Origin: a virus
DNA: 23,124 bases
IMG/VR virus record: IMGVR_UViG_3300035190_001048
Span: 1-23,124 of that record
Strand: one strand, 5' to 3'
In this document: piece after piece, positions 12,591 to 17,965 of the stretch
Layout: each line of letters starts with the position of its first letter
Position numbering within the stretch: the first letter of the stretch is position 1
Notes under the pieces: model-generated
Told to the model about the DNA's origin: nothing
Databases searched by the model: none
The model's input: the letters and a program-made list of their open reading frames with translations, nothing else
Program-made: the position numbers and the translations under genes

Positions 12591-14119
12591 AACGCCTCCT
12601 GAATGCGCTTCCCAATCCAAGCCACCACGGGCACGGCCCATGAGTTGCCCAATGCCTTGTAGCGTGGGCCGTCAGGGCACTCGATGGCAGGCTTCTTGCG
12701 CCACGGGATAGCGGTGTAGTTGTCGGGAAAGCCTTGCAGGCGTTCGCACTCCACAGGGGTCAGGCGGCGCACGGCCATAGTTGGGGGCTGAATTGCCATC
12801 TGATGCTCGGGGATGCGTCCAGCCCGAAGCGTGCCAGCCGTGTCGTATTTCGCAACACCAAACTCACTGTCTTGAAAAATACCAATAGGCTGTGCCACCG
12901 CATGAACAAAAGCAGACGTGACCGTGTGCGCCGGATCACCAGGGTCGCCAACCCCAACACCTTGCCGATTCATTTCATCGTGCTTTTCGGGGTCACGGCC
13001 AGCATTGCGCATGTCAAGCGGTATTGGTTGCAGTACAGGCGTTGCCACCGCCACACTCGCTTGTCCACCTGACGACCCGCACCCCACCCCATGCGTAGTG
13101 CCGTCAGTGCTGCTGATCGGGTCTTGCGTTGGGTGGAAGGCAATAGGCTGCGCCACCACATTCATGCCCCGATCCGCGCACGGGCTGCTGTCATGGCGAG
13201 CAGTTAGGGTGCCAGCGGTTTCGCCGAATTGGGTGATTGCCTGCGTGATCACGGGCGTTTTCCCCTCGTCCAAGGTTGAATTTATGCCCTTGTGCATCCG
13301 CGCGGTCAGGCAGTTGGCGACGGCGAATGGCTGCATCACCGCCCCAGCAAGCTGGTTCCTAATCGGCCCATCCTTGGCGCGGGTGTCCAGCGTTGGATTT
13401 AGGTCGGTGAGGCGACCGCCTGAAGGGCCAATTTCAATGCCTCCGGCAACACCTTCCCGCGCTTGTCGGCTCGGCGCAATATCCCGGCGCACGCCGTCGA
13501 ACTCAAAAAGAACCGCTGCGGGATCGAAGTCGTCTCGAGCACTTGCGACAACGAACACACGGCGGCGTCGTTGGGCCACTCCGAAATATTGGGCATCAAG
13601 GACGCGCCACGCGACTGTTCGCGTGGGACCATACACAACACCTGCGTTCGTCCACTTTCCCCCTGACGGCTCAAGCTCGCCATCTTCGCCGGCAAGTCCA
13701 GCCAAAAAGCACCCGAAGGCGTTGTCTTTGGTGCTGAGGACTCCGGGCACGTTTTCCCAGAAAATGATAGCGGGTTGCTGGCCGGCTCCAGTGCGAACAG
13801 TGTCAATTGCATTTGCGATCTCACAAAAAGTTAATGAAAGGTTTCCACGGGCGTCGTCAAGGGAGTTGCGAAGACCTGCCACGCTGAATGCCTGACAAGG
13901 GGTTCCGCCACAGAACACGTCTGGGGCTTCAACCTCGCCCGACAGGATGCGCTCAGGGAGGGCAGTCATGTCACCCAGGTTGGGCACATCGGGGTAGTGG
14001 TGGGCCAACACCGCAGAAGGGAATGGCTCAATCTCTGACAGCCATGCGGCCTTCCAGCCAAGCGGGTGCCATGCCACGCTTGCGGCTTCGATGCCGCTGC
14101 AAACAGAACCAAATTTCAT
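12587..14119 (-). CDS. dcm: C5-cytosine DNA methyltransferase
   Basis: 510 residues. The conserved motifs are complete and in order: I GSVCSGIEAAS (4-14), IV GGTPCQAFSVAG with catalytic Cys75 (71-82), VI WENV (121-124), VIII AQRRRRVF (182-189), IX RRLTPVECERLQGFPD (451-466), X YKALGNSWAVP (487-497). The target-recognition segment between VIII and IX is unusually long, about 255 residues, and low in recognisable motifs, so it may read more than one site as in multispecific phage enzymes. It transfers a methyl group from AdoMet to C5 of cytosine. No restriction endonuclease lies beside it, so a self-protection role against host restriction is likely. Confidence 0.93.
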   Translation of the reverse strand: MKFGSVCSGIEAASVAWHPLGWKAAWLSEIEPFPSAVLAHHYPDVPNLGDMTALPERILSGEVEAPDVFCGGTPCQAFSVAGLRNSLDDARGNLSLTFCEIANAIDTVRTGAGQQPAIIFWENVPGVLSTKDNAFGCFLAGLAGEDGELEPSGGKWTNAGVVYGPTRTVAWRVLDAQYFGVAQRRRRVFVVASARDDFDPAAVLFEFDGVRRDIAPSRQAREGVAGGIEIGPSGGRLTDLNPTLDTRAKDGPIRNQLAGAVMQPFAVANCLTARMHKGINSTLDEGKTPVITQAITQFGETAGTLTARHDSSPCADRGMNVVAQPIAFHPTQDPISSTDGTTHGVGCGSSGGQASVAVATPVLQPIPLDMRNAGRDPEKHDEMNRQGVGVGDPGDPAHTVTSAFVHAVAQPIGIFQDSEFGVAKYDTAGTLRAGRIPEHQMAIQPPTMAVRRLTPVECERLQGFPDNYTAIPWRKKPAIECPDGPRYKALGNSWAVPVVAWIGKRIQEAL

Positions 14120-16350: not shown

Positions 16351-16469
16351 CAGACCCCCAGCTTTCTGGCAATGGCCCGGCACGCCTGTTCAATCTGATC
16401 TGGCGTTGCATCAGGGTGCGCATTGATCCATGCCTGTTTCTCGCTCTCATATCGCTGGTACGCGCTCAC
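16350..16469 (-). CDS. Very small phage protein, 39 aa, GTG start
   Basis: 39 residues reading (M)SAYQRYESEKQAWINAHPDA and ending IARKLGV. A perfect GGAGG site lies 5-6 bases before the GTG at 16469, whose bases overlap the upstream stop (GTGA); an ATG at 16481 would give 43 residues. The motif K-x-x-W-x-x-x-H-P-D-A-T recurs in tiny proteins encoded just before phage replication genes, so it is probably real. The fold would be a helix, turn and helix. Function unknown, possibly an accessory of the DUF1376 protein it directly precedes (TGATG). Confidence 0.62.
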   Translation of the reverse strand: MSAYQRYESEKQAWINAHPDATPDQIEQACRAIARKLGV

Positions 16470-16750
16470 AACGCCCTCCATACCCGCTGATAGCGGCCTG
16501 ATGTTGTGGGCACCAGTTCCCCGGTAGTTTCGGCCTGCTTAGCCCTTTGCAAGTCGGCCAGGCGCTTGCGGCATGCGTAAGGCTCCATGCCCACTATGGC
16601 CGCGATCTGCTCGGGGTCCATGGGGCCGCACTGGATCAAAGCGGCATGGATGCGGGCGCAGTGAGTTCCTGCAAATTCACTGGCCATGCGTGCGGCTTCG
16701 TGGCTTGTTGCTGGGTCTGTTCGACGTGCCAGCGGGTTGATTGTTGACAT
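16466..16750 (-). CDS. Winged-helix phage protein, 94 aa
   Basis: 94 residues with a GGAGA site 4 bases before the ATG at 16750. The pattern RRTDPATSHEAARMASEFAG at the N-terminus, then MDPEQIAAIVGMEPYACRKRLADLQRA and a final SGRYQRVW, is typical of a winged-helix family common in early phage operons. Helix 2-turn-helix 3 (about residues 45-70) would read DNA. It is the first gene behind the leader with the two kissing hairpins, so its expression is likely set by that RNA. It may act as an early regulator or replication-linked DNA-binding protein. Confidence 0.72.
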   Translation of the reverse strand: MSTINPLARRTDPATSHEAARMASEFAGTHCARIHAALIQCGPMDPEQIAAIVGMEPYACRKRLADLQRAKQAETTGELVPTTSGRYQRVWRAL

Positions 16751-16768: not shown

Positions 16769-16866
16769 ACCCCTGAAAGCTGGTAGGACAAGTACCAGAC
16801 CTTCAGGGGTCAGCCTGTGACGGCTTAGATGTATCTGTGCCTTGTCCGCACAACATCTAAGCCGTC
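16769..16866 (-). ncRNA. Leader RNA with two hairpins and complementary (kissing) loops
   Basis: Minus-strand RNA folds into two hairpins. Hairpin B (first transcribed): a 14-bp perfect stem (16819-16832 with 16853-16866), a 5-bp upper stem and the 7-base loop GGACAAG. Hairpin A: a 9-bp lower stem (16769-16777 with 16802-16810), a 6-bp upper stem and the 7-base loop CTTGTCC. The loops are perfect reverse complements. Only 8 bases separate the hairpins. A T-rich run and the ribosome binding site of the 94-residue gene follow. Candidates are a put-like antitermination RNA (as in phage HK022) or an attenuator. The rest of the gap 16751-16875 holds only this and the promoter. Confidence 0.7.
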
Positions 16867-16874
16867 TGCGAAAA

Positions 16875-16880
16875 ATTATA
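16875..16880 (-). promoter_or_regulatory. Perfect -10 box of a leftward promoter, overlapping the stop of the Cro-like gene
   Basis: TATAAT on the minus strand; its first three bases are the TAA stop of the Cro-like gene. No good -35 is visible at 16-18 bases. Transcription would start around 16868, exactly at the base of hairpin B, so the RNA would begin with the kissing hairpins. Confidence 0.5.
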
Positions 16881-17175: not shown

Positions 17176-17181
17176 TCCCCC

Positions 17182-17939
17182 AACGCTGAAAACAAAACAG
17201 CGCCAGCCCTTCCAGATAGCTGGATTGTCAGGCGAGCACCGGCAGGGGTGGAAACGTGCATGAGGCCAGGACGCCAAGAGAAGCAAGTTCAGGCGCAGCG
17301 GGTGTTGCGTGACAGATGCCCCGGCAATGGGGCCATCACATCGGCAGAAAAGCCCGTTCAGCGGGTCAAAGGGTGCGCACCGGAGACTGTGAGCCTGTCG
17401 ATGTGATGGTTAAACGCATTTCGGTGCGTAGGACTGGGGATTCTCGGTTGCCATCAAACATCCGCGCTGGCGATGTAAAAGGCCAGCACCATCATTGAAG
17501 CGGCGGCGTGGAAGGACACGCGGAGTGCAAAGAGTAGATGGAGGGTGGCGCTGTGGTTGTTCGCAGAGGTCGGCCAGTAGGGTATGCACAAAAGGCATTG
17601 ACGTAAGCAAAGGATCACGCTGGGTAAAGCCAAGTATCCCTGAGCGAGATGCACATAAGTCCGATAGCTGGAATCAAGCCCAGCCCGCTTCAATGATGGT
17701 GAATGCGCAGGCTGATGCGCAAATACAAACCGTGGTCATTCCAGCACAGGCGAGAGGCAACGCCAAAAAGCGGGCCAATGCAGTGGACGCATGTAAAAAA
17801 CACCAGCCACAGGAAACCTCAAAGCCGGAAATGCAGCACCGGCCACCATCAACCCGCACGAAAGTGCCCGCGCTTTCCTCCCTGGCGCGGCTGCATTGGC
17901 AGTTCAGCCCTGATCGGTCACACGGTCGGGGCTTTTTTT
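17182..17939 (+). ncRNA. Candidate large structured non-coding RNA, about 760 nt
   Basis: This stretch has its own -10 box, ends in a strong intrinsic terminator and contains no protein I recognise in any frame. It is dense in local stems: CGCTG/CAGCG (17184-17202), TCCAG/CTGGA (17211-17224), GCCCC/GGGGC near 17318-17333, ACGCA/TGCGT (17414-17429), GCTGGC/GCCAGC (17466-17487), GCGTG/CACGC (17506-17521), GCCGG/CCGGC near 17824-17844, GAAAG/CTTTC near 17860-17877. There is also a perfect 11-bp long-range helix (17333-17343 with 17399-17409). Length, phage location and architecture recall ornate phage RNAs such as GOLLD and ROOL; membership is not shown. An open frame across its 3' half runs through the terminator and looks non-coding. 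Confidence 0.5.
17906..17939 (+). terminator. Intrinsic terminator at the end of the candidate RNA
   Basis: An 11-bp stem with two G-U pairs (AGCCCTGATCG at 17906-17916 with CGGTCGGGGCT at 17923-17933), 6-base loop, and a run of seven T (17933-17939). It faces the recombination genes, so those need read-through, antitermination or RNA processing. The ribosome binding site of the next gene lies about 15 bases further on. Confidence 0.7.
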
Positions 17940-17965
17940 GGGAGCACGTTTTACAGGGAAACAAA

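Follow-up and report, generated by a model that had tools for sequence, protein, structure and literature searches.

Contacts between hairpin loops of RNA are known from several systems. RNA I and RNA II of ColE1, which control plasmid copy number, pair through fully complementary 7-nt loops that belong to two molecules, and in the purine riboswitch L2 and L3, both 7-nt hairpin loops within a single RNA, interact. Among leader RNAs, the HK022 put RNAs (putL and putR) are two-hairpin leaders that bind the zinc-binding domain of RNA polymerase (PMC9378689). It was shown by cryo-EM that put adopts a V shape with a triplex, and kissing is not mentioned in that paper (PMC9378689). In the pT181 attenuators the leader kisses with a separate antisense RNA (PMC4878617). 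A third related case is IsrK of Gifsy-1, a prophage leader RNA of the antQ/anrP locus with its own terminator and with both terminated and read-through forms, whose abstract does not mention kissing hairpins (PMC4825925).

Here we looked at an element of ~98 nt in G000, a 23-kb phage contig. It lies on the minus strand, flanked by a Cro-like repressor gene on one side and by the replication genes on the other; the window is the whole 23,124-nt stretch of this contig that was analyzed. Like put, which acts without a phage protein (PMC9378689), the element would be a cis-acting two-hairpin RNA just 3′ of an early phage promoter, and its two hairpins do lie close to a predicted promoter of this kind. 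However, put is only ~70 nt long and V-shaped, no kissing is reported for it, it has no built-in U tract and its sequence is unrelated, whereas the present element has a 7-bp loop–loop helix and a terminator-like tail. The non-pairing loops and the missing terminator of put were not found here: the loops pair at 7/7 positions and hairpin 2 scores as a terminator. A covariance model of the element (R1, see below) gave 13.9 bits (E 0.11) on the HK022 locus, at a site other than put, and no alignment to putL or putR was visible. Identity with HK022 put was rejected on these grounds (no sequence match, non-complementary put loops and no built-in terminator in put), so that the comparison with put made in the original prediction holds as an analogy only. 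The leader could nevertheless work in a similar way to put.

The arrangement in pT181, where a 5′ hairpin and an intrinsic terminator share the leader and the kissing step decides termination (PMC4878617), is similar to the one predicted here, yet in our element the partners are in one transcript instead of on a separate antisense RNA, the pairing ends at 7 bp where that of pT181 is long and extended, and no competing antiterminator stem was found. The fully paired 7-nt loops recall those of ColE1, where the pairing is intermolecular. Unlike the purine riboswitch, there is neither a three-way junction nor a ligand pocket, and the loops show full Watson–Crick pairing with freely variable letters. 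The IsrK leader resembles the element in its phage setting and its terminator, which is predicted here, and is set apart by its locus and by an abstract without mention of kissing hairpins (PMC4825925).

Structure of the leader and its gene setting

The two adjacent hairpins of 14+5 and 9+6 bp, with loops complementary at 7/7 positions, were confirmed on the minus strand (Table 1). The T-rich run and the ribosome binding site that had been described after the second hairpin are present as well, and so is the perfect TATAAT before hairpin 1, with a gap of 8 bases and not 9 as originally stated. The first T of the U tract also pairs and closes the foot of hairpin 2. Folding of the minus strand gives −64.5 kcal/mol, where shuffled sequences average −36 (z −6.9; 0/200 shuffles as good), and the plus-strand fold of the same element has a z of −7.4 versus shuffles.

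Table 1. Features of the kissing-hairpin leader and the adjacent genes in the window.
Feature	Position	Strand	Basis or remark
Upstream Cro-like HTH repressor gene, 64 aa	16876-17070	-	PF01381 1.3e-06, phrog_18104
-10 box TATAAT	16880-16875	-	sequence; TAA doubles as stop codon of the upstream Cro-like gene
Hairpin 1: lower stem of 14 bp and upper stem of 5 bp with a 3-nt bulge between them; 7-nt loop	16866-16819	-	fold and alignments
Loop 1 GGACAAG, partner of loop 2	16847-16841	-	7/7 complementary to loop 2
Conserved bulge GAU of hairpin 1	16835-16833	-	
Unpaired linker ACAGGCUG, GGC invariant	16818-16811	-	invariant columns in A1
Hairpin 2: lower stem of 9 bp and upper stem of 6 bp with an asymmetric internal loop between them; 7-nt loop	16810-16769	-	fold and alignments
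Loop 2 CTTGTCC, partner of loop 1	16792-16786	-	alignments
U tract TTTTCTTTTT	16769-16760	-	directly 3′ of the G-rich hairpin 2 foot; predicted intrinsic terminator, d = 25.8
Ribosome binding site GGAG	16759-16756	-	sequence
ATG of first downstream gene	16750	-	sequence
First downstream gene, 94 aa, phrog_1123	16466-16750	-	followed by a DUF1376 primosomal-like gene and a DnaB-like helicase gene

The first genes 3′ of the element in its relatives encode replication initiators, primosomal proteins, a helicase-methyltransferase, HNH proteins and small unknown proteins. The −10 box overlaps the stop codon of the same-strand ORF before it in most of 29 relatives, as it does at 16875-16880 in the window, and because of this overlap the leader usually lies between two genes with its own predicted promoter. 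A ribosome halting at this stop codon could touch hairpin 1.

Comparative evidence for the loop–loop pairing

Complementary loop pairs are not rare by chance: a lenient scan gave unrelated cases, including one near position 841 of the same window. Since two 7-base loops can match in this way, proof of the kissing must be comparative. Relatives were found by scanning 2.9 million viral contigs with a pattern of the hairpin 1 stem letters in which the loop was left free, and with further patterns built from hairpin 2, its loop free as well; the first loose pattern matched mostly unrelated contigs. Every complete match with both hairpins that came from the loop-free stem patterns has loops paired at 7/7 positions. 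Three near-identical contigs are uninformative on the loop pairing, while a fourth contig (L006, GAATCAG/CTGATTC) and the phage MW202710.1 (GGTTCAG/CTGAACC) have loops that differ from those of the window and are perfectly matched.

Alignment A1 contains 28 distinct sequences aligned by MAFFT, with the structure unused. In this alignment 26 of the 28 rows, with the window represented by its twin L003, come from the list of a detector that demands exact loop complementarity, and most of those 26 are also matched by the loop-blind patterns. The seven loop–loop pairs are standard in 196/196 cells, and both sides change at five of the seven. Covariance model R1, which was built without the kissing pairs, added two more complete members, both 7/7. 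A loop-blind pattern made of the linker and the stem foot, AAGCCNTCAN{0,3}GGCTGACCC, led to 24 complete new records (23 distinct, 104–132 bits), which constitute alignment A3; its unrelated matches reach 4–5 of the 7 loop pairs, and a single one has 7/7 without full closing stems. In A3 the loops pair 7/7 in 24/24 records, both sides change at three of the seven pairs and no cell is broken. Shuffled controls, whose counts are not to be taken as probabilities in alignments of related sequences, gave 0/500 as good as the whole A1 structure and, when loop 2 was shuffled among the members of A3, a mean of 3.9 and a maximum of 11 against the 24 observed.

In total there are 52 distinct elements with 15 loop types, and each loop is matched base for base by its partner. 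A loop that changes alone among relatives, which the original prediction had named as evidence against itself, appears in none of the A1 cells or A3 records, and the covariation between the loops that it had proposed to look for in related phages is seen at the pairs given above. The covariation extends to the stems of both hairpins in A1 and A3; hairpin 1 has 96–99% of its cells paired across the alignments, with many compensatory changes. The kissing stops exactly at seven pairs, as the loop-flanking bases pair in 1/60 cases, and an extended duplex of loop 1 and loop 2 as an alternative structure is ruled out by these flanks. Outside the paired regions, A1 is invariant at the GGC of the linker and at a single A in the bulge. 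Pairing is conceivable between GGCU of the linker and AGCC of hairpin 1, but the letters involved are nearly invariant, so that covariation is uninformative.

Judged by this covariation, both hairpins and the loop–loop pairing are real, and a natural tertiary contact between RNA loops rarely has covariation as clean as these 15 loop pairs without exception. A kissing-loop leader at the head of the replication operon, as originally predicted, is strongly supported. Rfam 15 has no family that matches at gathering score in the window or at the element in six other loci, low thresholds give chance matches only, and a description of such a kissing leader was not found in the literature searched (open-licence papers). 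The element is a real, previously uncatalogued regulatory RNA.

Transcription signals and the possible role of the kissing

A −10-like hexamer (TA....T) is located 6–9 nt 5′ of hairpin 1 in 26/26 family members and in the 24/24 records of the linker pattern, and a transcript that begins with hairpin 1 would be expected from this distance. In every scored member the foot of hairpin 2 is G-rich and runs into a U tract, whose letters differ between members (TTTTCTTTTT, TTTTTTATT, TTTTTTTTT) and remain U-rich; because the letters change and the U-richness stays, a role as a U tract is favored over a sequence motif. By the d'Aubenton-Carafa score d, uncalibrated for these hosts, hairpin 2 and the U tract are a predicted terminator in 30/30 sequences (d minimum 7.6, median 22) and in 24/24 records of the linker pattern (minimum 21, median 29). 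All 54 scored sequences (52 distinct) therefore have d > 7, with a predicted intrinsic terminator that precedes the first ribosome binding site. The Shine–Dalgarno (SD) sequence is directly 3′ of the U tract in most members, with the start codon close behind. In every member scored a predicted promoter, recognized by a −10 box with no clear −35 box, precedes the terminator.

Based on these sequences, a −10 box, a terminator-like U tract and a position before early genes are established for the element, and the predicted order of promoter, hairpin, terminator, ribosome binding site and gene is that of an attenuator. For the attenuation or antitermination role given in the original prediction, the predicted terminator between the −10 box and the ribosome binding site in 54/54 sequences is indirect support. 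The further proposal that the element replaces an N- or Q-like protein goes beyond these data. In the seven loci examined, the hairpin of the element itself is nearly the sole strong intrinsic terminator on the operon strand, in a survey that covers intrinsic terminators and to which Rho-dependent sites are not visible, and with so few others nothing visible in these loci calls for long-range antitermination at intrinsic terminators. The Q-type families PF06530 and PF03589 have no match at cut-off in 21 records, most of them fragments.

One of the questions that is raised by this arrangement is what the kissing does to the terminator. The mechanism that we favor, with a likelihood just short of even, is that the element, as a leader RNA acting in cis, controls whether transcription passes its own terminator, where the kissing antiterminates and lets part of the polymerases reach the replication genes. 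RNA polymerase would start ~2 nt before hairpin 1, so that the RNA opens with this hairpin, and hairpin 2 with the U tract would serve as an intrinsic terminator placed past the promoter but ahead of the first ribosome binding site. By our estimate, with an exit path of ~14 nt, loop 2 would leave the polymerase at about the time the active site enters the U tract, and the kissing would therefore compete in time with the closure of the terminator. The waiting loop 1 may then catch the emerging loop 2 through seven base pairs, with no pairing past the edges of the loops. Together with both upper stems, the loop–loop helix would form a bridge of roughly 18 bp over two legs. These legs would bend at the conserved bulge and at the internal loop, which would allow the kissing helix to stack with the upper stems. 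Most likely, the kissing would delay or distort the closure of the terminator, leading to a set share of polymerases that read through.

That the kissing opposes termination rather than aids it, the sign of the switch (ON or OFF) and any regulatory signal are points that we infer. The final fold can accommodate the full hairpin 2 together with the kissing, which therefore need not oppose termination, and the overlap of the upstream stop codon with the −10 box in most members speaks against our favored mechanism in that it makes read-through from upstream possible. If the kissing does control the terminator, the element would be a protein-free switch of ~100 nt with many ready-made loop versions and another RNA-only route to the control of phage early transcription, beside put. 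More tentatively, and at less than an even chance, it may stand for a family of phage leader RNAs that is new. Their 5′ hairpin would kiss the loop of the following terminator in cis and thereby set read-through into the replication genes, in a modular set of at least 15 pairs that would work without protein or antisense RNA.

Other options should be weighed against control of the terminator in cis. The kissing complex might dock on RNA polymerase as a put-like processive antiterminator that resists distant pauses and terminators, with its own U tract as the pause site at which it folds and loads. The two hairpins right behind the promoter, as in HK022 putL, the conserved unpaired linker and bulge that could contact protein, and the presence of several copies per phage with different promoters all fit this option. 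We still regard it as unlikely: the score of the model on HK022 (13.9 bits) is not beyond chance, the put loops share at most two complementary bases and the put cryo-EM paper is without mention of kissing, and the operon strand offers few other strong intrinsic terminators to be resisted. A different role is suggested by the position of hairpin 1, which begins ~2 nt past the predicted start in every member scored, and by the very stable fold. Such a hairpin at +1 to +3, locked by the kissing, could shield the 5′ end of the mRNA from 5′-dependent decay or set a processing site, an improbable explanation in our opinion as it accounts neither for the terminator-like U tract nor for the invariant linker.

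We attach a similarly low probability to action in trans, in which an RNA of ~105 nt ended at the U tract would pair through its loops with other leaders and provide copy-number control or immunity in the manner of P4 CI RNA, c4 RNA or Gifsy-1 IsrK, the 15 loop types being specificity groups. The potential for pairing of the P4 CI or c4 type is seen, a terminated product is predicted, and the loops are diverse and differ between copies in the four contigs that have two; IsrK also gives a precedent of a prophage leader that is both a terminated sRNA and a read-through mRNA (PMC4825925). Yet each element matches itself, so that cis pairing should win, by our estimate chance alone would give different loops in 4 of 4 contigs with a probability of about 65%, and a protein repressor gene is present. 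Control of translation, with the kissing complex and the U tract shaping a ribosome standby site at the adjacent SD, seems very improbable despite the placement of the SD directly behind the U tract in most members, as the SD is outside both hairpins. Virtually no weight is left for chance or for mere sequence conservation without functional kissing: loop pairs of 7/7 do occur by chance in the lenient scan, but 15 loop types without a broken cell, sampled by loop-blind patterns, already contradict it.

Distribution and other observations

The relatives are nearly all uncultivated phage contigs, and all but one are metagenomic; the exception is the named phage MW202710.1, which was also the one phage record with the element when named phages and plasmids were searched (zero plasmids). 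In a collection of bacterial genomes from 84,980 species, the stem pattern gave 17 matches, none with a matching second hairpin, and no match to the covariance model was found in 369 genomes of one bacterial class, under strict filters and without a positive control. EBPR podovirus 1 and MW202713.1, which have a related helicase-methyltransferase gene, showed no match to the element in the stretches examined.

Two copies are found in four contigs, on the same strand in G011 (L143), G006 (L131) and G026 (L190/L241) and one per strand in G008 (L137/L188). In each of these contigs the two copies carry different loop pairs. We dropped this difference as a proof of cross-talk avoidance, since with four contigs it is expected by chance.

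Two further RNAs were observed. A contig that also holds a kissing element matches RF02932 (Betaproteobacteria-1 RNA) above gathering score at 13589-13718 on the plus strand (L191). In the window itself, ~780 nt at 17177-17960 on the plus strand, lying between a TATAAT and the first gene of that strand, contain no convincing gene and are a candidate large structured phage RNA, with no Rfam match at gathering score. Its fold gives −313 kcal/mol (z −3.3) with a strong predicted terminator at its end (17906-17938), and the first ~70 nt are kept in L006 though the adjoining DNA has changed.
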